Source: Rugalucina vietnamica (taxonomy: Eukaryota > Mollusca > Bivalvia > Lucinida > Lucinidae). Taken from it: a stretch of 64,000 nucleotides of DNA. The stretch covers positions 45,936,997 through 46,000,996 of the forward strand of contig OZ024883.1 of assembly GCA_964017185.1 (NCBI GenBank), written 5' to 3'. Under the pieces are notes generated by a model. It was not told where the DNA came from. It made no database searches and saw only the letters and a list, made by a program, of their open reading frames with translations. Below are positions 6,536 through 54,266 of the stretch, piece after piece (positions within the stretch are counted from its first letter, which is position 1; each line of letters begins with the position of its first letter). The position numbers and the translations under genes were made by a program.

Positions 6536-9500
6536 TTCTACCACACTTAGGGTGCAACCAAAGTTCCACCACACTTAGGGTGCAACCAAAGTTCCACCAC
6601 ACTTAGGGTGCAACCTAAGTTCCACCACACTCACGATGCAACCAAAGTTCCACCACACGATGCAACCAAAGTTCCACCACACTTAGGGGTTCAACCAAAG
6701 TTCCACCACACTTAGGGGTGCAACCAAAGTTCCACCACACTAAGGATGCAACCAAAGTTCCACCACACATAGGGTGCAACCAAAGTTCCACCACACTTAG
6801 GATGCAACCAAAGTTCCACCACACATAGGGTGCAACCAAAGTTTCACCACACTCACGATGCAACCAAAGTTCCACCACACTCACGATGCAACCAAAGTTC
6901 CACCACACATAGGGTGCAACCAAAGTTTCACCACACTCACGATGCAACCAAAGTTCCACCACACTCACGATGCAACCAAAGTTCCACCACACTCACGATG
7001 CAACCAAAGTTCCACCACACTCACGATGCAATCAAAGTTCCACCACACTTAGGGTGCAACCAAAGTTCCACCACACTTAGGGTGCAACCTAAGTTCCACC
7101 ACACTCACGATGCAACCAAGGTTCCACCACACTCACGATGCACCCAAAGTTCCACCACACTTAGGGGTTCAACCAAAGTTCCACCACACTTAGGATGCAA
7201 CCAAAGTTCCACCACACTAAGGGTGCAACCCACCACACTAAGGGGTACAACAAAGTTCCACCACACTTAGGGGTGCAACCAAAGTTCCACCACACTTAAG
7301 GTGCAACCAAAGTTCCACCACACTCATGATGCAACCAAAGTTCCATCACACTTAAGGGTACAACCAAAGTTCCAGCATACTTAGGGTGCAACTAAACTTC
7401 CATTACACTTTGGTAGTAACCACACTTTCCACCACACATATGGTGCAACCAAAGTTCCACCACACTCATGATGCAACCAAAGTTCCATCACACTTAAGGG
7501 TACAACCAAAGTTCCAGCATACTTAGGGTGCAACTAAACTTCCATTACACTTTGGTAGCAACCACACTTTCCACCACACATACGGTGCAACCAAAGTTCC
7601 ACCACACTCATGATGCAACCAAAGTTCCATCACACTTAAGAGTACAACCAAAGTTCCAGCATACTTAGGGTGCAACTAAACTTCAATTACACTTTGGTAG
7701 CAACCACACATTCCACCACACATACGGTGCAACCTAAGTTCCACCACACTCACGATGCAACCAAAGTTCCACTACACTTAAAGTGCAACCAAAGTTCCAC
7801 CACACTTAGGGGTGCAACCAAAGTTCCACCACACTTAGGATGCAACCAAAGTTCCACCACACTTAGGGTGCAACCAAAGTTCCACCACACTCACGATACA
7901 ACCAAAGTTCCACCACACTCACGATGCAACCAAAGTTCCACCATTCTCACGATGCAACCAAAGTTCCACCACACTTACAGTGCAACCAAAGTTCCACCAC
8001 ACTTAGTGTGCAACCAAAGTTCCACCACACTTAGGGTGCAACCTAAGTTCCACCACACTCACGATGCAACCAAAGTTCCACCACACAATGCAACCAAAGT
8101 TCCATCACACTTAGGGGTTCAACCAAAGTTCCACCACACTTAGGGGTGCAACCAAAGTTCCACCACACTAAGGATGCAACCAAAGTTCCACCACACATAG
8201 GGTGCAACCAAAGTTCCACCACACTTAGGATGCAACCAAAGTTCCACCACACATAGGGTGCAACAAAAGTTCCACCACACTCACGATGCAACCAAAGTTC
8301 CACCACACTCACGATGCAACCATAGTTCCACCACACTCACAATGCACTTAGGGTGCAACCAAAGTTCCACCACACTTAGGGTACAACCTAAGTTCCACCA
8401 CACTCACGATGCAACCAAAGTTCCACCACACTCACAATGCAACCAAAGTTCCACCACACTTAGGGTGCAACCAAAGTTCCACCACACTTAGGGTGCAACC
8501 TAAGTTCCACCACACTCACGATGCAACCAAAGTTCCACCACACTCACGATGCAACCAAAGTTCCACCACACTTAGGGGTTCAACCAAAGTTCCACCACAC
8601 TTAGGATACAACCAAAGTTCCACCACACTTAGGGTGCAACCCACCACACTAAGGGGTACAACAAAGTTCCACCACACTTAGGGGTGCAACCAAAGTTCCA
8701 CCACACTTAAGATGCAACCAAAGTTCCACCACACTCATGATGCAACCAAAGTTCCATCACACTTAAGGGTACAACCAAAGTTCCAGCATACTTAGGGTGC
8801 AACTAAACTGCCATTACACTTAGGGTGCAACCAAAGTTCCATTACACTTATGGTGCAATCAACATTCCACCACACTTAGGGATGCAACCAAAGTTCCACC
8901 ACACTTAGAGTGCAACCAAAGTTCCACCACACTTAGGGGTTCAACCAAAGTTCCACCACACTTAGGATACAACCAAAGTTCCACCACACTTAGGGTGCAA
9001 CCCGCCACACTAAGGGGTACAACAAAGTTCCACCACACTTAGGGGTGCAACCAAAGTTCCACCACACTTAAGGTGCAACCAAAGTTCCACCACACTCATG
9101 ATGCAACCAAAGTTCCATCACACTTAAGGGTACAACCAAAGTTCCAGCATACTTAGGGTGCAACTAAACTGCCATTACACTTAGGGTGCAACCAAAGTTC
9201 CATTACACTTATGGTGCAATCAACATTCCACCACACTTAGGGATGCAACCAAAGTTCCACCACACTTAGAGTGCAACCAAAGTTCCACCACACTTAGAGT
9301 GCAACCAAAGTTCCACCACAGAGGGCAACCAAAGTTCCAGCACACTCAAAAGTGCAACCAGAGTTCCACCACACTTTAAGTGCAACCAAAGTTCCAGCAC
9401 ACTCAAAAGTGCAACCAGAGTTCCACCACACTTAGAGTGCAACCAGAGTTCCACCACACTTAGAGGGCAACCAGAGTTCCACCCCACTTAGAGTGCAACC

Positions 9501-23353: not shown

Positions 23354-26300
23354 TATATTTTTTAATTTAATTTTTCAACAAAGCATTTTCATTGAATAAT
23401 TGGCATACACATGAAAAGCACTGTTCACAGTTTAGAAGGTTTTCCTGATCTTTGCCTACTTGTACCTCCTTAATCCTGTTTGTACAGTTTGCTTGTACAT
23501 GAATGAATGTTGCATGAATAATTGAAAAGGAAAACTGTCATAAAACCAATTTACATTGAAACAAGGATTATCACACGTTTTGACAGATACTAAACAAACA
23601 CAGACTTAGTGGATGGCAGTGAGTACATGAAATTATGTTGGTTTGTTGAAGGTGTGAAAAAACAGATGACCACTTCATCAATGTTAAACACTTTAATGAC
23701 ACTTCATTCATTTCAAGTTAGACCTTCAGAGTGACAAGTCCCTCTGAGATTTATGACATAAATGTTTGGATGTCATTCTAGTGATACAAAAACGGAATCT
23801 ATATGTGCAATGTGACACGACACATTTATTTTTATTTGGAATATGGATATTATTATAATAATTTATTCTGAAACTTTTCTTCATTTAAATCTTTTTTAGA
23901 AAGTATAGCAGCATTTAAATGAACTGTTGAGAATATTATCAATGGTCTAGGCCTGCTCTTTCTGACATAGAATTTAGGTTATGCTTCAGCATTGGCTCAA
24001 TTCAGAAAATTAGATGATTTTAAATGCAAATCTGAAAATCAGAATATAAACTATAAGAAAATAAAAGAGCTTCTAAAATTCCATTTTAGACACTTCTCAT
24101 TTGTATTTAAAGTTCCCTTCAAGTGGCCTCCTGAAGGCAGAGGCAGGTACGTAGAATTACCAAAACACACCAAAACACCGGAACACACTGGTAATTACCA
24201 AAACACACTTATATTTTGTATTATCTAGTACTGAAGTATATTTTATGAGACCCAGATGATAAAAAGTTATATTCTCTTTTGATGGATGTCAGTTGTAAGT
24301 GTGATAAATATTATTTATTTGGTGTGTTTTGGTCTGCCTTGCATAGAATTAATTGTTATTGATTTTCACACCCTATCATCAAATTGTTGACATTATTAAT
24401 GTACCGTGGTAATTGGCTTACCTGATCAAACAATGTATATTCAGAAAAAAATGAAAAAAAAAAAAAGTTAAAATATTAGATAAATGAAAAATAATGCGGA
24501 AAATATAGACATTCTCGACGTGCATCATCTTAAGCCTCGGATCCGAGAATGAGAGCAGGTTATAGGCATATTTTTCTTGTGATTCATTGAAATCAGTATT
24601 TTCTCTTTATGTAAATGCTTGCAATTACAACGCAGGACTAGTTTCAGATATATATTGAACTTTTACAAGTGATTTTGAGGACCCATATTTAATAGATTTG
24701 AAAAAAGTTGATGATAGGTTAAAAGGTACTGTAATATTAAATACATTTAATCAAATTATTATGTCAATCGTCAGGTCCACATACGTGTCAGTTCGTATAA
24801 CAAGGTAATTCATCTGTTTATTGTATTGGCACGTGCTTATCTATTAGAACACAGTAGCAAAAATGTCGATAACTAATACACAGCGGCCATAAAGTAAGAC
24901 TGGCGTGTGAAAGCTTTATTGGCGAAAAGCGTTCATACATATACTAGACGCCGGGATTGATAACGTTGCGGAAATAAATTTATTGTAACTTTAATAATTC
25001 GTAAAATACTATAACGTTGATTTTTTGACAATTCCATAAGTCGTGTCATTTTCAACAACAATTTTAAAAAATCGTTACCGAATCAATTTTATTCAATTAA
25101 GGTTTCTTTGATGTATAGAACTTCGTCCTAAACTAATTAAAATAAGTTCGAGTCTGATTGGGACAATTAATTACTCCTTCGTTGACGGATAATTACACCA
25201 ATTAAAAGTCTTGAGTACATCTACTCGACTCAATAGGTGTCAACTGGGTATTATTTAAGCCATTATTTCTCAAACTTTAACATAACCACGATCAGCATGG
25301 CTAGATTCTGTTTGATGGGCGACTCCTACGTCAAGAGGCTACAGAACTTCTGCGGCGGCGACCTTCATCTTCCGGGACCTACGAGATTTCTTCGACAAGG
25401 GGGGCTGCGCTGCGACGAACTCGACGATACTATGAAAACACAAATGAAACAAGCCGCCGCAAAATCCGACTACGTCTTCCTCTCCATCGGCGGCAACGAC
25501 ATCAGTCCCATCTCCGATTCAGAAGTCATCTTCAACAACATCCGTGACCTGGTAGAAAAGCTAGAAGAAACTGACGTGCGCCGAGTGTATATTTCAGAAA
25601 TTCTACCAAGAGGCGATTTTTCAAAAAGTAAACCCCGCGGTCTGACCAAAGCAAAGTTTGACAGCGACAGAAAAGCTATAAACAAGTTAATGTTCAAGGA
25701 ATACGGCACGCGGGTCATCAAATTCCATGACATACGATATCCTAGAGACTACCACAGCGACAAGGTCCATTTATCAGAACCAACACAAGACAGCAAAAAA
25801 TGTGGCCTTCGAAAATACTTCTTTAGAATAAGACTCACATTCTGCAGTTCCCGAGATTAATTGTCTCACAAACGGTCCTTTTCAGGACCACTATACATTA
25901 TGAAAGAAGCCTTATAATGTCCAAAACAATTACACATGCACTTCCAACCATTCACCCCATCCCACCTCTTCATGAAAGAAGCCTTATAATGTCAAAAATT
26001 AACAGCTTATCATCAAGTTATGACACTATGAAAGAAGCCTTATATAATGTTAACACCTCATACCTCTTCCCGTTCGCTATAGTGACACCTGTCCCATTAC
26101 ACATTTCCAATTACCAATAAAATAAGTGTGTTTTGGTAATTACCAGTGTGTTCCGGTGTTTTGGTGTGTTTTGGTAATTCTACGAACCGGGCAGAGGCCT
26201 ATGACCTCATAATCACTTAGATAAGGTAAGCCTTTGATGTGCGCTATGCCTCCTGGACTGTTTATTAGGGGTCATTAGACCAGGCCACCCCAGGTAAAGA

Positions 26301-43100: not shown

Positions 43101-46100
43101 CATAGCATGATTGTTTTAAAAGTATTTTTCAAGCAGAATCATGGGCAAGGGCGATGCATGACATTTCGTCGAATTGGTCGAAAATGTTGTAGCTTCAAAA
43201 ATATTCACCGCAAAACATTGAGATTTATTCCGTAGAAGACTAGCCTATAAGTCGTCCAGTTACTGTACTTCTTGACTCTCAGGTGAGCGATGGTTGCCCT
43301 GTTTTTTTCTCCCATAATTGTTTGCCCCAAATTTGTTGAGTACATTAAAATCACAACTCTTTATAACTGATCCAAAATAAAATACAAACTCCCTGGCTGT
43401 TTACCTATATCAACAAGTTCTTCAACCTCTGTTTTGATTGGTTGTGGTGGTGGCTCTACCTTGATAGTAACAGGCGGGGTGACGGGACGACGGATTGGAG
43501 TATCTTTAGGTAAAGGACCTGAAACACCACAATATTGATTTCCTATAAACCAGTTCAATCATAATTACCAGAGGACCAATGGTCCTGTACACGCTCACCT
43601 GAGACCTGAGATATATACCAATAACCAGACTAGAATAACTAGACCATTGACTAGAATGGTAATATACATGTAAATAACCCCAGGGCAGGGTCAGGGCAAC
43701 CTCTGGAGTCAATTTCTTTAATAAATCATAAAGATTCAGTCATTTGCAAATTTACTGCAAGTTTTGCCCTTCAAATGACATTATAACAATTTTCCCCATT
43801 CAAATGCTTAGGCAACCTAAGTTGACCTTGCCATAAAAAGGTCAAGGTCATCCCAGGGTCATGACTTATACAAACTTTGAAGAGCTCCATTGCTTGATGC
43901 TTCATGCCGTTTCAAAATCATAGGCCTTCTAGTACTGGAGAAGAAGATTTTTAAAGGTTTTTGCTATTTATAGCCATGGGGGCCATCTTGGTCATGTGAC
44001 CTTGACCATTTATACTAACTTTCATTCACTCTTCCTAAGAATGTTCCACATAAAGTTTGGCTTTGATTAGCCAAGCGGTTTCAGAGAAGATGTTTCAATA
44101 TTATGGTCATACACATGTATATAGCCCCGGGACAGGGGCAGACAACCCTCTGGGCCCAAAATATTTTCATAAACATAAATCCATTTGCTCATTCCTAGCA
44201 AGTTTTTTGCCATTAAATGACATTTTCTATTTTTTCACATTCAAGTGCATGGGCAGCCTAAGTTGACCTTGCCGTAAAAACAGTCAAGGTCATCTAATGG
44301 TCATGATTTACACAAACTTTGTAGAGCTCCTTTTTTTTTTCCCTCAGGCAGTCTAGGTGTGAAATGTAGAAAATTTTGGTTCTTGAGTTTTTGCAGGATT
44401 ATTAATTAAATAGTGGTAATACAGGAATAAAAATTGGATATTTTGAAAGAAAAACTTCAGATGCAGAATTCTGTGAAGAAAAGTTGTAAAAATATGCTGG
44501 AATAAAAAAGTTATTTGAAGAAGTTTGAAAATCCTTTGTTCTTCATAGTGAGAAAATACTGAGATATTGACCTATTTTGTGTCAAATGGACTAATCCTTG
44601 GACTAACCTGTTGAAAACATAGCAGTGGAAATTCTGATACAAAGGATTAACTGTTAACTGTTAACAAGAATGTCACTAGAGAAAGCTCAGACAGTTACTA
44701 GGACCAGCACAGCTGAAATCAAGGTCACTAGCACACCCAGCAAGGCAGGGAGTGGACCCCCAGCAAAATCTAAGAGAACGATCTCAGAGGTTTCTGAAGC
44801 TAGTGCTGAAGAAATCACAATAATGAATCAGCAGCTGGAACATCTGTCAAGTGACCTCAAGGACACAAGAGAAAGGGTTATGAACCTTATGACCAAAACA
44901 GAGGTCCAGAATTTCATTACAGAGACAGTAAATAAGGTCATGACAAGTATGGGAAACAAAATTGAGAAGATGATAGACAGTAAAATCAAAGATAAAACAA
45001 AAGAGCTTGAAGATAAAATCAATTCCTTAGAATTTGATAAGAAAAACCTAGTAGACAGGCTAACACAAGTTGAATCAACAGTAGAAAGACAGACAGTCAG
45101 ATTGACTGAATTGGAAAAAGTGGCGATTGCTTCTGCACAACGAAGCAATTATAACGAACAATACTCCCGGAAAAACAATGTAAAAATTCTGAACATTGAA
45201 GAACTCACCACAGAGACAGAGAACACACTGACAGAGACCGTCACTAGTACTCTGTTGTCCAAGGCAAACATTGACTTGGACCCTCAGGACATAATAGCTC
45301 TACACAGAATCCCGGGAAAATCAGGGGCCACTAGACCAGTCCTCCTGAAGCTGAAGAACAACTCGGTGAAGACTGCCATAATGAAACAGAGGCAGGCAAT
45401 GAAGGCAGCGGGCTACAGGCTAGTGGACGACGTCACTAAGTTAAACACTGGCCTTATTGGTAGACTAATGAAGCACGCAAGAATTGACTCTGCGTGGTAT
45501 TTCAACGGAGCAGTCTATGGTAAGACAACAGAGGGGCGGCGCCACAAGTTTGACATATACTGTAACATAAACTCTGTCATCCAAGACAACACAGCAGTTG
45601 AAGAAGAAGCAGATGAGATGCGTCCACTGATTCTAGGACGGCTTGAACCATAAAGAACAATGACAGTATGTCAGTCTTTCTCAACAGACATAATGTGATG
45701 CCGATTATATCTTAATAAAAGGACGGCTAATTGATATTAAACATTTAAGTGTGTGAATGGTAGTGTGGATGTGTTACATTCAAAAACCACTATATGGATA
45801 AAACAGTGACATTTTATAATTGAAATGGAATTTAGCATAAACATTAAAGCATAAAAAGTAAATCTGGATATTCTTAGAATGGTGAGTCAATCTTATATTC
45901 AAAATACCAGTGGTCCTGTAAACGCTCACCTGAGACCTGAGATATATACCAATAAACTTGTTTGACTAGAATGGTATTATGTATATATCCCCAGGGCAGA
46001 GTCAGAGCAGCCTCTGGAGTCAATTTCTTTTTTAAATCATAAAGATTTAGTCCATTTGCCAATTTACTGCAAGTTTTGCCCTTCAAATGACATTGTAACA

Positions 46101-49100
46101 ATTTTCCCCATTCAAATGCGTGAACAACCTAAGTTGACCATGCCGTAAAAAGATCAAGGTCATCCCAAGGTCATGATTTATACAAACTTTGTAGAGCTTC
46201 ATTGCTTGATGCTTCATGCCAAGTTTCAAAATCATAGGCCTTCTGGTTCTGGAGAAGAAGATTTTTTAAAGATTTTTGCTATTTATAGCCATGGCGGCCA
46301 TCTTAGTCATGTGACCTTGACCATAATATACAAACTTTCATTCACTCTTCCTCAGAATGCTCCACATAAAGTTTGGCTTTGATTGGCCAAGCGGTTTCAG
46401 AGAAGATGTTTGAATATCATGGTAATACACAAGTATATAGCCCCGCGACAGGGGCAGACAACCCTCTGGGCCCAAAATATTTTCATAAACATGAATATTT
46501 TGTCCATTTGCTCATTCCTAGCAAGTTTTTTGCCATTAAATGACATTTTCCTGTTTTTTCCATTCAAATGCATGGGCGGCCTAAGTTGACCTTGCTGTAA
46601 AAAAGGTCAAGGTCATCCCAAGGTCATGATTTATACAAACTTTGTAAAACTTCATTGCCTGATGCTTCATGCAAAGTATCAAAATCATAGGTCTTCTGGT
46701 TTTGGAGAAGAAGATTTTTAAAGGTTTTTGCTATTTATAGCCATGGCGGCCATCTTGGTCAAATGACCTTGACCATTTATATAAACTTTCATTCACTCTT
46801 CCTCAGAATGCTCCACATAAAGTTTGGCTTTGATTGGCCAAGGGATTTCAGAGAAGAAGATGTTTGAATATTATAATCATACACATGTATATAGCCCCGG
46901 AACAGGGGCAGACAACCCTCTGGGCCAAAAATATTTTCATAAACATGAATATTCTGTCCATTTGCTCATTCCTAGCAAGTTTTTGCCATTAAATGACATT
47001 TTCCAATTTTTTCCCATTCAAATGCATGGGGGGCCTACGTTGACCTTGCCGTAAAAAAGGTCAAGGTCATTGCATGGTCATGATTTATACAAACTTTGTA
47101 GAGCTTCATTGCCTGATGCTTCATGCCAAGTTTCAAAATCATAGGCCTTCTGGTTCTGGAGAAGAAGATTTTTAAAGGTTTTGGCTATTTATAGCCATGG
47201 CGGCCATCTTGGTCATGTGACCTGGACCATTTATACAAACTTTCGTTCCCCCTTCCTAAGGATGCTCCACACAAAGTTTGGCTTTGATTGGCCAAGTGGT
47301 TTCAGAGGAGAAGATCTTTGAAATTGTGAACGACGGACGACGGACGACGGACGACGACGGACGACGACGGACGACGGAGCATGGGTATACTATAAGCTCA
47401 CCTGTGAGCCTTCGGCTCAGGTGAGCTAAAAAAGTATTGATATGTTGAATCTATCAACACTATAGACATGAAAAAATCTATCTATGGCTTTCTGATTAGG
47501 TTAGACACAGACAAACTGGAACATTTAAACATGGTTCATGGCCAGCGCACTCAGGAAGTAGAGGGATTGTACCAACTATGTCATCATGTTTATAGTCACT
47601 GTTCATGCAGTAATTAAGCAGATGGTTCATACCTACATGTTAATAAAAAGTAGTTTTTCTCATCACATGAAAAAGTATTGATTTCATTATAGTCATGAAA
47701 AAATCTATCTATGGTTCTCTGATTAGGTTAGACACAGACAAAGCGGAACATTTAAACATGGTTCATGGCCAGCGCACTCAGGCCAGCGCACTCAGGAAGT
47801 AGAGGGATTGTACCAACTATGTCATCATGTTTATAGTCACTGTTCATGCAGTAATTAGACAAATGGTTCATGCCTTTATGTTCTTTAAAAGTAGGTTTTC
47901 TCAAGAAAAAGTATTGATTTCAATATAGACATGAAAAAATCTATCTATGGCTGTCTGATTAGGTTGGACACAAAGCAGAATATTTAAACATGGTTCATGG
48001 CCTGCGCACTGAGTAGAGGGATTGTGCCATACATCATGTCACAAAAAGTATAGCCTTTGATACAGTACTTAAGCTGATGGTTCATGTATTTGTGTTATTA
48101 AAAAGCAGTTTCTCTCATGACACGACTCTGATTAGGTTAGACACAGACATAACTGACCGTTAAAATATAGAGTCTGGCCAGTGCACTGAGGTTATAGAGG
48201 GATTGTGCCATCTATATATTTCATAAAAAGTATAGTAATTTATCAGTTATGCAGTAAATAAGCAAATTATTCATGTTGGTACAGTACTAAAAAGCATGTT
48301 TTCTCATCACATGGCTCAAAGACTTTCTCATGACATGGCTCATATTCTAAAAGTCTTGAATCAGAACTTCAAAATTGAATATACACTTTATAAATGTAGT
48401 TTTTCTCATAAAAGTATTCACATTTATCTCTCTTACAGGAATGTTTATGGTTACTACATGTAAAATAGCAAGAATATAGTATATGCTTGAAAAATGTATG
48501 TATTTAAAGCAAAAAAAGGAATTGAGTGAATGCAAGGGAGGTAATCAAAATCTATATTGCAAGATAGCAAACCTTATTAGTAATATTATTCTCCCTTTTA
48601 TTTGCACAGATTTTTGCCTGTACTCAGCTATATCAGCATAATTAATGTGATTATGATTCACACATAGAGTTTAGAAAAGTGGAAAACAGCTCAAATGCGT
48701 TTTCAGATTAGATATATGGAGATGTTTTAAGTAAGTATGTATTTGATGTCTTGCAGCTTTCGAATTTTCGGCAAGACATATGGTTGATCTATCTGGCATT
48801 AGGTTGAAATGTCTATGTAACATACAAACAGGTCAAAAGTCATTACTACATAGACATACCAGCATAATGTATATATACGTATATCGTCTTACAAAACCTG
48901 TCTTCCTATCGAAAATCCTACTCTAAGTTAGGGTAGGCTTTTATTTCCAAAATAATTGTTTCATAATGATTACGGGGAAGATCAGGAGGGTTAAGACAAG
49001 ATGCTGTTAAACAAAGCAGACCCTATAAAATAAGCTGTGTTATAATGCAAAATGTACATGTAAAACAGTTTTCATAATAAGATGATATGCCATACATTGG

Positions 49101-52100
49101 TCAAGTTATAAAATTGTTTTATTAGAAATTAAGAAATCAAGAGATGATCAAAAAGTGAAGCTGATTTGTATCAGATTGATAAAACAATACCAAAAAAAAA
49201 TGATATTTACTTTGTATAAAAATTTCAATTAGGAAGCCAATTACAAAGAAATTAAATCACTTAGCAGAAATAACAGATCCATATAGCCATGGATTATTTT
49301 TACTGTGTATTTCTGGTATGTTTGAGCTGCTGTACTCATTGCTCAAAAGCTATTTTCTATCAGTATGCTCTAATTGATTGTCAAACATTGTTTTTACTGG
49401 TCATCACATGTTTCAGCAACAACTGTCAATGTTGATAAACAAAAAACCTCTACCTCTTTAAAACACTTCTTATTATAAGACATTTTGGAAATAATATAGT
49501 TCATTGCTAGTCTCAACATACTTACTTTACTTACTATATAGCTATACAATATTATCTTACTTAAACATGATATGGAGCTAGAGTAAAGGAAAATAACAGT
49601 GTTATAAGGAGGTATCACAAACTATTTTACCCATCTTCTGGTGAATTAGTCAGTACCGTAGGTCAATTGGTAGGATAAACTGACATTAAAAACTAAATGC
49701 ATATTTCTAAAGACAATATCCAATAATCTATTTTTCTGTATTATAAGAATTATCGCAAATCTTTTGAGAACTAACATGTCTGTTATGTTTACTGTTTGTA
49801 TGCTGTATGTGTTACATTTTGTTATTTTTCTCTTGTACATGTATTCTGTTGTTAAGCATGACATCACCATCCATTTAAAAACTACTAGAGTTATAGCAAG
49901 GATAACATCTTTCAAAGAATATGGCTGATTTCACAACAATTTTTTCCCAAAACTGTCGAGGCCTCAAGAACATGCAAAAAAGGAGGGATTTATTCCATTA
50001 TATACGCTCAAAAAAGTATAATATAGCATGCCTGCAAGATGTTCACATTGACAGAAACATGTATTCATATGTAAAATCAGAATGGGGGTATAATATTATC
50101 TTAAGTGCAAAAGAAGGTATTAATGCAAGCAGGGGTGTCATGATATTAATCAACAATAACTTTTCTTGTGATACAGGTCAAATTTTAACTGACCCAGATG
50201 GAAATTATGTGATTGTAGAATTAAAAATAATGGATGAAACAATAACACTTGCCAGTATTTACGGGCCAAATGATGACAGACCCATATTTTACAAAAAACT
50301 CAGGCAAAAAATATCAGAATTTGGAAACAATAAGGTTATAATCTGTGGAGACTGGAATTTAGTGTTAAACCCTGAAGAGGACACTGAAAACTATCGCCAT
50401 GTAAATAATCCGGCAGCTCGACAAGAAGTTTTAAAATTTATTGACGAAGACAACTATATTGATATTTTTAGGTTTTGCAAAGATGAAAAAGGTTTCACTT
50501 GGAGACGGCTCAACCCAGATTACATGAATTAAGAAAAAACACCATAGAGGGAGTAATGTTAAGATCCCGATGCAGATACAAGGACTTAGGAGAAAAGCCG
50601 TCAAGCTACTTTTTCAACCTTGAAAAGGGAAATTTTACTAATAAAGTGATAACCAAAATAATAGAAACTGATGGGCATGAATCCTGTTCAACAGAAGAAA
50701 TTCTTAACAGCCAGAAAACTTATTTCAGAAATCTATATAGTGAAATTAACATTGTTGATAATGAATCAGTTGAATCATTAGTAGGAGAAAATCCGTTAAA
50801 ATTAACAGGAGAGGAAGCTGAGCTCCTAGAGGGGGATATTAAATACTCAGAACTTGCTGAGGCATTGAAAAATATGAAAAACTCAAAAACACCTGGAAGT
50901 GATGGCTTTACTGCAGAATTCTTTAAATTCTTTTGGGCTGACCTTAAATACATAATTCTGAACTCTTTAAACTATGGATATAGAACTGGCACATTCTCAA
51001 TTACTCAAAGACAAGGTATCATAACTTGCCTTCCTAAACCAAATAAATCACCTTTCTATCTAAAAAACTGGCGCCCTATCTCTCTTCTTAATGTAATTTA
51101 TAAACTAGCTTCTTCAGTTATTGCCACTCGGCTAAAATCTGTTTTGCATAAAATTATAAACCAAGATCAAAAGGGGTTTATTTCAGGCAGATTCATTGGG
51201 GAAAACATACGGCTTATTTATGATATACTTTTTGAAACAAAACAGCAAGAAATCCCAGGTCTAATTTTGTCAATAGATTTTCAGCAAGCCTTTGATTCCG
51301 TGTCATGGAAGTTTATTCACAAAACTCTAGATTATTTTAACTTTGGGCCCTCATTTAAGCGTTGGATTGAAATATTCCAGAATGGCTCTGAGTCTTGCAT
51401 CCTTCAGAATGGCCACATGACAGACTACTTCAGTTTACAAAGAGGATGCCGACAAGGGGACCCTATATCACCGTATATATTTATTCTATGTGCTGAAGTC
51501 TTAAGCCACATGCTTAGAAAAGATAAGGACATAAAAGGTATAATAATAAATAATAAAGAATATAAACTAAGTCAATATGCTGATGATACACAAATATTCT
51601 TGGATGGAACAGAAATATCCCTAAGAAAAACTCTAGAAAAATTACATACATTTTATCTAATGTCAGGTCTTAAATTAAACATTGACAAAACAAAAGCAAT
51701 ATGGATAGGTGCAGCAAGTAAGTCCAAAAATAGGCTATGTCATGAATATAATTTAGACTGGAATCAGGAACCCTTCAAAGTTTTAGGTACAATTTTTACC
51801 ACTGAGGTCTTTGACATATGGGAAAAAAATGCAACTGCAATATTTAAGAATGTGGAACAAACTATTAAATCTTGGTCAAAACGAAAATTAACATTGCTGG
51901 GCAAGATAACAGTTATCAAATCACTAGCTTTATCTAAATTTGTTCATCTATTCCTAGCATTACCCAACCCCCCTGGGGAGTTAATCAAAAACTTAAATAA
52001 ACTAGAATTGTCAGAGGATCTGACTATAGCCCCGCTTCTGAGCTTTTTGCCAGGGTGAGACAAACAATGACGTGCAACAATCCCAAGTTAGATCTTGTTA

Positions 52101-54266
52101 ATGTTGATGCACATAAAAAGATTGGTCAGATTCTGTCAATTTGTCAAAATTCTGACATCAATCAAGGGCCAAAACTCTGTTAAGATTTTGCAAAAAATGA
52201 CAGGCAACAATCCCAAGCTAGATCTTGTCAATGTTGATGTGCATACAAAATTTGGTCAGATTCTGTCAATTCATTCTCAATATATTGAGTGGAAACTATA
52301 TTCTGACGTCAATCAAGGGCTGTTACTCCGTAAAAATTTTGCGAAAAATGACGGGCAACAATGCCAAGCTAGATCATGTCAATGTTAATGTGCATATAAA
52401 ATTTGGTCAGATTCTATCAATTTGTTCTCGAGATATTGAGCGGAAACGAAATTCTGACGTCAATCAAGGACCATAACTCCTTCAAAATTTTGCGAAAAAT
52501 GACAGGCAACAATCCCAAGCTAGATCTTAACAATGTTGATGTGCATACAAATTTTGGTCAGATTCTGTCAATTTGTTCTCGAGATATTGAGCGGAAACAA
52601 AATTCTGACGTCAATCAAGGGCCGTAACTCTGTCAAAATTTTGCCTAAAATGACAGGCAACAATCCCAAGGTAGATGTTGTCAATGTGGATGTGCATATA
52701 AATTTTGGTCAGATTCTGTCAATTTGTTCTCGAGATATTGAGCGGAAACGAAATTCTGACGTCAATCAAGGGCCGTAACTCTGACAAAATTTTGAGAAAA
52801 ATGATGGGCAACAATCCCAAGCTAGATGTTGTCAATGTTAATGTACATACAAAATTTGGTCAGATTCTGTCCATTGCTTCTCAAGATATTGAGCGGAAAC
52901 GAAATTCTGAGTCAATCAAGGGCCATAACTCCGTCAAAATTTTGCGAAAAATGACGGGCAACAATCCCAAGGTAGATGTTGTCAATGTGGATGTGCATAT
53001 AAATTTTGGTCAGATTCTGTCAATTTGTTCTCGAGATATTGAGCGGAAACGAAATTCTGATGTCAATCAAGGGCCGTAACTCCGTCAAAATTTTGCGAAA
53101 AATGACGGGCAACAATCCCAAGGTAGATGTTGTCAATGTTGATGTGCATACAAAATTTGGTCAGATTCTGTCAATTTGTTCTTAAGATATTGAGCGGAAA
53201 CAAAATGTTCACGGAATGACGGAACCACGGAATCACAGAATCACGGAACCACGGAAGGACAGGGTGAATCCAGTATAGCCCCACTTTTCCAAAGCGGGGC
53301 TATAATTATTTTATAGTTTTCTGTGGAACTCAGGGCCAGACAGAATTAAGCGAAAAGTCATTGTTAAAGATATAGCAAAGGGAGGATTAAGAATGATTCA
53401 AATAGATGCTTTTATTATGGCTTTAAAAGTAACTTGGCTTAGGAGATATATTGTACAGTCTGATAGTTCTTGGAGCTCTCTCTCAAATATCAATTTTAAT
53501 GATTTATTATCTAAAGGTGAAAATTATGCAGAACTAAAGGCAAATGAATTATTAAACCCTTTCTGGAAAGATACATTAAAAAGCTGGAAAAATCTTTGTA
53601 AACTAATAGAAGTAGAAAGGCTTCAGGACATACTCAACAGCCCATTATGGTTCAATACACATTTACAACAAGGACACAATCTATATATAAGAGAATGGTA
53701 CAAAAAAGGCATTAGAAACATTTCAGATTTGATTAACTCGGATGGAAGATTTTATCAGCTGGATGAACTAAAAGTTATATACAACATTCAGGGAACGTTT
53801 CTAGAACAATTTAATGCCAAATGGTCTTGTCTAAACAATTTCTTGCAAGGCAGATGAAAACAAAATGCAAAAATTAATATAAAAAACAATGACAAAACAA
53901 AACCATACATCAAAACAAAACACATCCACATTAAATTCTTAAAAGTGCATATTACAATAACTATTGAAGTCTTATTTTAAAAGTAGGTAAAAATGGATGG
54001 GAGGTGTCATGCTGAATAGAACTGAATACATGTAAATATCTCTTCATTAAATTTGTAAATTCAAAACATGTATATATAAATAAATGGTTGTACTTATACA
54101 AATCACATTATTTAGCCATTAAAGTGTATTATACAGTGGTAGCTCGAAAAATATTCAGTAAGGTGCTAAGATGGATATGAGTGGTGCGGAAGTAATATTC
54201 ATGAAAATTGTATTTGTACTCTGTACTTGATGTTGTAATTATCTAGAATAAATATGGAGAGATGTG

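Follow-up and report, generated by a model that had tools for sequence, protein, structure and literature searches.

Mutator-like elements (MULEs) that carry an OTU domain are already known, and the available text of PMC6446971 describes an example, MuDR-6_HM ("Ovarian Tumour Gene"). Like the family reported here, such elements combine a MULE transposase, an OTU domain and inverted ends. Target duplications of 9 bp are common in a table of that paper, and those found here measure 9-10 bp. The difference lies in the second gene, which here codes for an SGNH hydrolase and has a 3' end of the histone type. Neither SGNH nor hydrolase gives a match when the main text of the paper is searched for these words.

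SGNH reading frames are already known from retroelements (PMC3905857 and PMC5408684, in the available portions of both). The non-LTR retrotransposon ZfL2-1 (PMC3905857) likewise has an SGNH esterase with conserved catalytic residues as an element gene. However, ZfL2-1 is a retroelement whose esterase lies within the ORF1 protein, whereas here the hydrolase is a separate gene of a cut-and-paste transposon; the available part of that paper mentions no histone 3' end. The bdelloid elements Vesta and Athena (PMC5408684) also carry a GDSL/SGNH ORF3 as an accessory gene, in unlike mobile elements. These are LTR and Athena retroelements, and the evolution of their ORF shows, according to the same partial text, no significant departure from neutrality. 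The role of the SGNH ORF is left open in the available text of the bdelloid study, as is the reason for SGNH esterases in mobile elements generally in the accessible parts of PMC3905857 and PMC5408684.

A third comparison is with replication-dependent histone genes (RF00032). These resemble the SGNH gene in having a single exon, a TATA-like box, a stem-loop and a purine box at about the H3 spacing. They differ from it in that the present gene encodes a hydrolase and is mobile and dispersed. Searches of the open-licence literature, judged by titles and the starts of abstracts, turned up neither a MULE with an SGNH partner nor a transposon gene with a histone stem-loop.

The window is the whole stretch of Rugalucina vietnamica DNA that was analysed, 64,000 nucleotides long. 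The element within it has the following features, given by coordinates and strand.

24136..24144, no strand: left target-site duplication GGCAGAGGC, read from the sequence; the identical 9 bases stand at 26190-26198
24145..24215, plus: left terminal inverted repeat, one end base and 70 nt, containing iterated ACCAAAACACA-type units (repeat analysis; 42 genome-wide end matches)
24428..24446, no strand: internal-deletion junction with short filler (element positions 293/310, compared with the long copy L020)
25252..25259, plus: TATA-like box TATTTAAG, about 40 nt upstream of the ATG, read from the sequence
25297..25860, plus: SGNH hydrolase ORF of 187 aa, a single open frame with intact catalytic residues (ORF, Pfam, alignment, structure prediction)
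25869..25915, plus: histone 3'-UTR stem-loop RF00032 (38.1 bits, E 1.4e-7, gathering score 34)
25900..25911, plus: purine box like a histone downstream element, ATGAAAGAAGCC then TTATAATGT, with GAAAGA 12 nt past the stem (compared with host H3)
25972..26054, plus: two further copies of the downstream box, at 25972-25998 and 26028-26054 (repeat family D1)
26119..26189, minus: right terminal inverted repeat (sequence and repeat analysis)
26190..26198, no strand: right target-site duplication GGCAGAGGC, read from the sequence

The transposon proper spans 24145-26189, because the target duplication GGCAGAGGC occupies 24136-24144 and 26190-26198. Its inverted ends (24146-24215 and 26119-26188) are 70 nt long and complementary at 97%, in agreement with an earlier note on this DNA, which had claimed near-perfect inverted ends of 68 bp and a 9 bp duplication. 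A 50-nt core of the ends has two exact matches in the window and none in 100 shuffles. The genome searched comprises 1.09 Gb in 47 contigs. A 54-base end core has 42 matches in it when up to 3 mismatches are allowed (35 are exact), and none in the backwards control. Twelve of these ends stand alone and the others form 15 pairs, spaced by less than 12 kb, which makes at least 27 insertions. Fourteen paired copies were measured, with lengths from 0.56 to 9.4 kb. Their target duplications, read by eye, are perfect over 9-10 bp in 11 copies, have one mismatch in two (L009 and L013) and are lacking in one (L018). The earlier note was right to call this a true TIR DNA transposon with recent activity.

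The window copy is an internally deleted derivative in which the transposase half is gone. It lacks about 7.3 kb, at element positions 293 to 310, which in L020 holds a transposase ORF and a PHD-finger ORF. The transposase lies on the strand opposite to the SGNH gene in both long copies, L020 and L024. The L024 frame is 962 aa long and includes an OTU protease domain (PF02338, E 1.5e-6), PF00872 (E 1e-5) and the MULE domain PF10551 (E 1.1e-6; E 6.1e-7 in L020). The motifs GVDKTF, GSDDERA, CTRHLLQN and NNNCESINHV follow one another in this protein, starting at 645, 715, 738 and 831. We take them, with their DDE-type catalytic residues and C-x2-H, to be a MULE-type transposase signature. The PHD-finger ORF occurs in both long copies (PF00628, E 4.3e-7 in L024; 90% identical in L020). 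CR1-like elements with an esterase plus a PHD finger, the latter also present here, were reportedly described by Kapitonov and Jurka in 2003. Transposase domain, motif order, inverted ends and 9-10 bp duplications, within the 8-11 bp typical of MULEs, together assign the lineage, by sequence, to the Mutator-like elements as an OTU-MULE.

Among the family copies found, none was seen with both ends and a whole transposase frame, because L020, which has both ends and a 9-bp duplication, has a shorter 655-aa frame without OTU, and L024, with its whole frame, has no matched right end. The transposase is kept in 1 of the 14 paired copies, and all or part of the SGNH ORF in 13. The earlier statement that the element has no transposase holds for the window copy itself and fails for the family, whose longer relatives encode one.

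The SGNH ORF matches Lipase_GDSL_2 in Pfam (PF13472, E 9e-08) at 33.3 bits, just over the cut-off of 32.9; the shorter frames that overlap the ORF or come after it measure 87 and 67 aa. In 12 aligned family members G8, D9, G66, N67, D155 and H158 are invariant and S10 nearly so, and the Ser, Gly, Asn and His blocks of SGNH hydrolases are all present. The alignment bears out the first reading of an intact 187-codon ORF with Ser10, Asn67, Asp155 and His158. An AlphaFold2 model from 12 sequences has a mean pLDDT of 82.7 and a pTM of 0.82, with lower confidence at residues 151-170, near His158 (pLDDT about 58-62). A fold search was used because direct sequence search of the PDB gave only weak SGNH matches. 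Foldseek returned SGNH acylhydrolases (best 4iyj_B, E 3.0e-6), and also PAF acetylhydrolase (PAF-AH) and TesA. The hydrolase is predicted to be catalytically competent. Scans of viral contigs with the single protein and with the alignment found no SGNH relatives.

The genome holds at least 108 matches to the SGNH protein (150 of 244 candidates scored) and at least 52 to the transposase (47 of 1586 candidates scored). After merging within 10 kb these form 96 SGNH and 40 transposase clusters. Among the matches listed, an SGNH match lies within 10 kb of 16 of the 40 transposase clusters, against about 0.07 expected under even placement. Three of the 16 belong to the window element's own family and one is a fragment of an other-lineage transposase beside an own-family SGNH gene. 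The other 12 are diverged pairs, in which transposases 34-75% identical to the own-family one each stand with diverged SGNH genes. By their coordinates the two genes may be divergent, convergent or tandem, depending on the family. Judged by these pairings, the SGNH hydrolase is a standing gene of the OTU-MULE lineage and not recent cargo; the earlier description of it as the sole cargo does not survive them.

Twenty SGNH places at least 84% identical were found among the matches listed, and 19 of them have a family end no more than 10 kb away. The remaining one, L047, is not near a family end and is split over two matches. Outside the family, the next full-length SGNH match listed is 66% identical and has a transposase 4-9 kb away; a more distant parent gene of the host may exist.

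Nei-Gojobori dN/dS between the family's own copies and this 66% sister is 0.12-0.14 (about 0.13), a rough value because dS, at about 1.7-2.0, is near saturation. Those of the more distant pairs that allowed dS to be computed give 0.19-0.29, and young copies, which have few changes, give 0.5-3.9. The alignment used for these ratios left out L053 (internal stops) and L046 (start lost) among 21 ORFs read. The ratios show purifying selection on the SGNH gene along the lineage, and drift after insertion in young copies. Because young copies drift, an uninterrupted ORF in a single copy says little. As an argument from one copy, the earlier suggestion that it indicates recent activity or selection carries little weight; selection shows only between subfamilies. 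The intact ORF may serve the element.

The main point about the gene, its 3' end, was overlooked in the earlier reading of the element. The RF00032 match is the single Rfam match over the whole window, with no second stem-loop. Bases 25874-25879 pair with 25884-25889 around a TTTC loop, and the stem begins with the 14th base after the stop codon. The histone consensus is matched in the stem, the loop, the 5' A-rich flank, the 3' ACC and the downstream GAAAGA. A histone-type 3' signal of the SGNH gene is thus a well-supported reading of these bases. To our knowledge, metazoan histone stem-loops are regarded as nearly exclusive to replication-dependent histone genes. An AATAAA at 26116-26121 counts against histone-type processing. 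Upstream, similar TATA-like boxes were seen by eye in 6 of 8 SGNH genes, including that of the window (L050 and L051 are near copies); the box is doubtful in L044 and L052.

The host genome has H3, H2A and H2B genes (labels by eye). Three host histone 3' ends were read, the third in a stretch that ends before the hairpin. The H3 gene on C10 ends in AACGGCCCTTTTTAGGGCCACACAATTTCTCAAGAAAGAAAGCTATCATAATG, nearly the same as the end of L056. The host H3 box reads CAAGAAAGAAAG..ATAATG at about the spacing of the window gene, and the purine downstream element GAAAGA is alike in the two. The hairpin recurs in an H2B-like host gene, there together with GAAAAGA. The U7 RNA model RF00066 matched nothing in the host genome and also matched no control genome. 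A U7-like pattern with an Sm site gave 5 matches, against 9 in the backwards control, and none was convincing on reading.

Other sequences of the genome also carry such ends. Among 180135 candidates from a whole-genome scan with RF00032, 75 were scored; since 74 of these belong to a single tandem array, the scan gives no genome-wide count. This array (C5:38078156-38198985) has a unit of about 1.4 kb and 74 stem-loop matches, 73 at 30.2 bits and one at 39.4. In the 2.5 kb of it that were read (L060, G000:C5:38105900-38108400), the unit is a single-frame ORF of 106 aa with an acidic tail, ending in a histone stem-loop and a GAAAGA box and matching no Pfam family over the cut-off. The promoter word AGGTGTCAACT is common to this array gene and the window SGNH gene (L029), and AGTAGGTCAATC stands near the TATA box in two host histone promoters, H2B-like and H2A-like. 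At G000:C10:43048554-43054727 four tandem diverged SGNH matches lie about 160 kb from a histone array (C10:42.87-42.89 Mb). One stretch of this cluster that was read, L116, has two hairpins by eye, one of which Rfam reports with 19.1 bits, below its gathering score. A stem-loop with a downstream box, also under the gathering score (32.2 bits), occurs at L061 (G000:C3:43574560-43574605, minus strand), and the 1 kb read there has no recognisable ORF upstream of it.

In the element's own family, RF00032 is over its gathering score in 12 of the 15 members given. The exceptions are L016 (also L037), with a mutated stem; L024, which ends before the hairpin; and L025, in which the gene goes no further than its first part. 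The stem-loop is present in L033, which lies at the same place as L024. Outside the family, 44 SGNH loci divide into 14 over the gathering score, 5 under it and 25 without a stem-loop (by batch, over/under/none: 12 loci 6/3/3; 20 loci 6/0/14; 12 loci 2/2/8). The 19 loci with a hairpin are not independent, some being near copies, and represent about 11 distinct subfamilies by eye. They are 32-43% identical to the window protein, except for the sister at 64-66% and L087 at 30%. L087 also has the weakest stem-loop (19.4 bits), with a full stem and no clear downstream box.

Among the 25 loci without a hairpin, L049, L050 and L066 are shortened relative to near-identical relatives that bear one. 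Of the other 22, 17 share a common type of C-terminus ending near SYKTV (by eye). Six ORFs, of this group and L109, were checked, and in five of the six (L106, L107, L108, L109 and L115) a pyrimidine-rich tract and CAG stand before the codon that precedes Pro-Gly. This is a predicted splice acceptor, at a point where hairpin-bearing genes stay open. The tested members of this intron-bearing branch have no hairpin. The contrast is not clean, because L055 and L104 stay open and have neither a hairpin nor an intron in the ORF. Diverged families keep the histone end, and another SGNH branch uses a predicted intron and probably poly(A).

Ten of the SGNH genes in the 12 diverged transposase pairs were tested; the stem-loop is present in five (L044 under the gathering score) and absent in five. 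With 25 of 44 loci and 5 of these 10 lacking it, the histone end is therefore dispensable for the partnership. A tree of 25 SGNH proteins requires 4 changes of the stem-loop label, against a shuffled mean of 6.9, and 2 of 500 shuffles are as low. Near copies and broken or cut frames were left out (L053 and L046, and from the 20 read L102, L103, L105, L114, L115, L116 and L118). The tree does not settle between one and several origins of the stem-loop, because its branches are long and poorly placed.

Pairing is kept among the diverged ends. The alignment has 13 ends, 12 from SGNH genes (L052 and L074 resemble each other as near copies) and one from the array. Standard pairs fill 78 of its 78 cells, and sliding the partner by 1-3 columns leaves 8-59% paired. 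Two of the six pairs are changed on both sides, a count reached by 36 of 500 shuffles. Covariation is 0.252 against 0.146 when shuffled, and 1 of 500 shuffles is as high. Three of the six pairs are invariant and therefore uninformative on covariation. The stem shows compensatory changes in diverged SGNH genes.

The model that we propose, and regard as likely, is that OTU-MULEs express their SGNH hydrolase via the host pathway for replication-dependent histone mRNA, either during S phase or in the egg and early embryo. Long members carry the OTU-MULE transposase and the PHD-finger ORF on one strand and, divergently, the SGNH gene as a single open frame. By sequence, that gene is laid out like a replication-dependent histone gene, with a TATA-like box, a single exon, a short 3' UTR, a stem-loop and a purine box. 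Given this layout, its mRNA is most likely cleaved by the SLBP/U7 machinery and not polyadenylated. The mRNA would be plentiful during S phase, or else in the egg and early embryo. The weakest step is that a catalytically competent hydrolase produced then would help the element's cycle, for instance by acting during chromosome replication. Cut-and-paste with gap repair during replication would add copies, and would leave internally deleted ones like that of the window. Our guess is that the hydrolase promotes transposition or shields the element during that time.

Another model is a capture of the Pack-MULE type. In this case the element would have picked up a host SGNH gene already equipped with a histone-type 3' end, and would carry it along as a passenger of no use to the element. 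MULEs are known to take pieces of host genes (PMC6446971, available text), and the tandem SGNH cluster on C10, about 160 kb from the histone array, has hairpins in one stretch (19.1 bits). Nevertheless this origin seems unlikely, since the transposase partnership recurs in families with transposases 34-75% identical, purifying selection acts between subfamilies, and a family end stands no more than 10 kb from 19 of the 20 SGNH places with at least 84% identity (among the matches listed, L047 being split).

A second alternative is that SGNH genes and MULE transposases are both abundant and adjoin by nesting, the histone end being a trait of a dispersed SGNH family. Gene order does differ between families; a transposase match lies within 10 kb in 16 of the 96 SGNH clusters (47 of 1586 transposase candidates scored); and the own-family SGNH copy at C1:23249383 is near an other-lineage transposase by chance or nesting. 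Yet chance gives only 0.07, and internal deletion would be expected to yield copies without a transposase. In 13 of the 14 paired copies of the own family, matched inverted ends also enclose the SGNH gene, whole or partial. This is seen again in L057, where a relative at 39% lies inside unrelated inverted ends with the 9-bp duplication GTTTAAGAC (by eye). We consider such nesting improbable.

Still less probable is a DNA or RNA structure serving another need of the element, such as transposase binding or replication, for although the hairpin stands about 230 nt before the right inverted repeat and subterminal structures occur in other transposons, it matches the histone consensus with GAAAGA at about the host H3 spacing, lies 3' of the stop codon in families with differing gene order, and is absent from the tested members of the intron-bearing branch.

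If expression through the histone pathway is the correct reading, a mobile element uses that pathway for cell-cycle timing and has kept it over deep protein divergence. Such SGNH transcripts would be missed by poly(A) RNA-seq. The hairpin branch and the intron branch of the same gene form a natural paired comparison. The transposon gene also offers a handle on the recurrence of SGNH esterases in unrelated mobile elements. The broader claim is that an animal DNA transposon lineage took over the histone mRNA pathway, with unpolyadenylated, SLBP/U7-processed SGNH transcripts tying transposition to replication; for us it is evenly balanced between true and false.

Short C-terminal SGNH fragments (residues 138-185, 63-67% identical) occur at 12 places, including G000:C12:33859283, C14:20091362 and C7:55245686, most of them in 57-aa open frames. 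They are perhaps small derivatives of the sister family. Elsewhere in the window, positions 44658-53857 hold the long frames of a non-LTR retrotransposon, with an ORF1-like frame at 44658-45653 and three ORFs among which the endonuclease and reverse-transcriptase frames are divided (labels by eye). Imperfect tandem repeats at 6773-8143 are open as KFHHTHDAT-type repeats.
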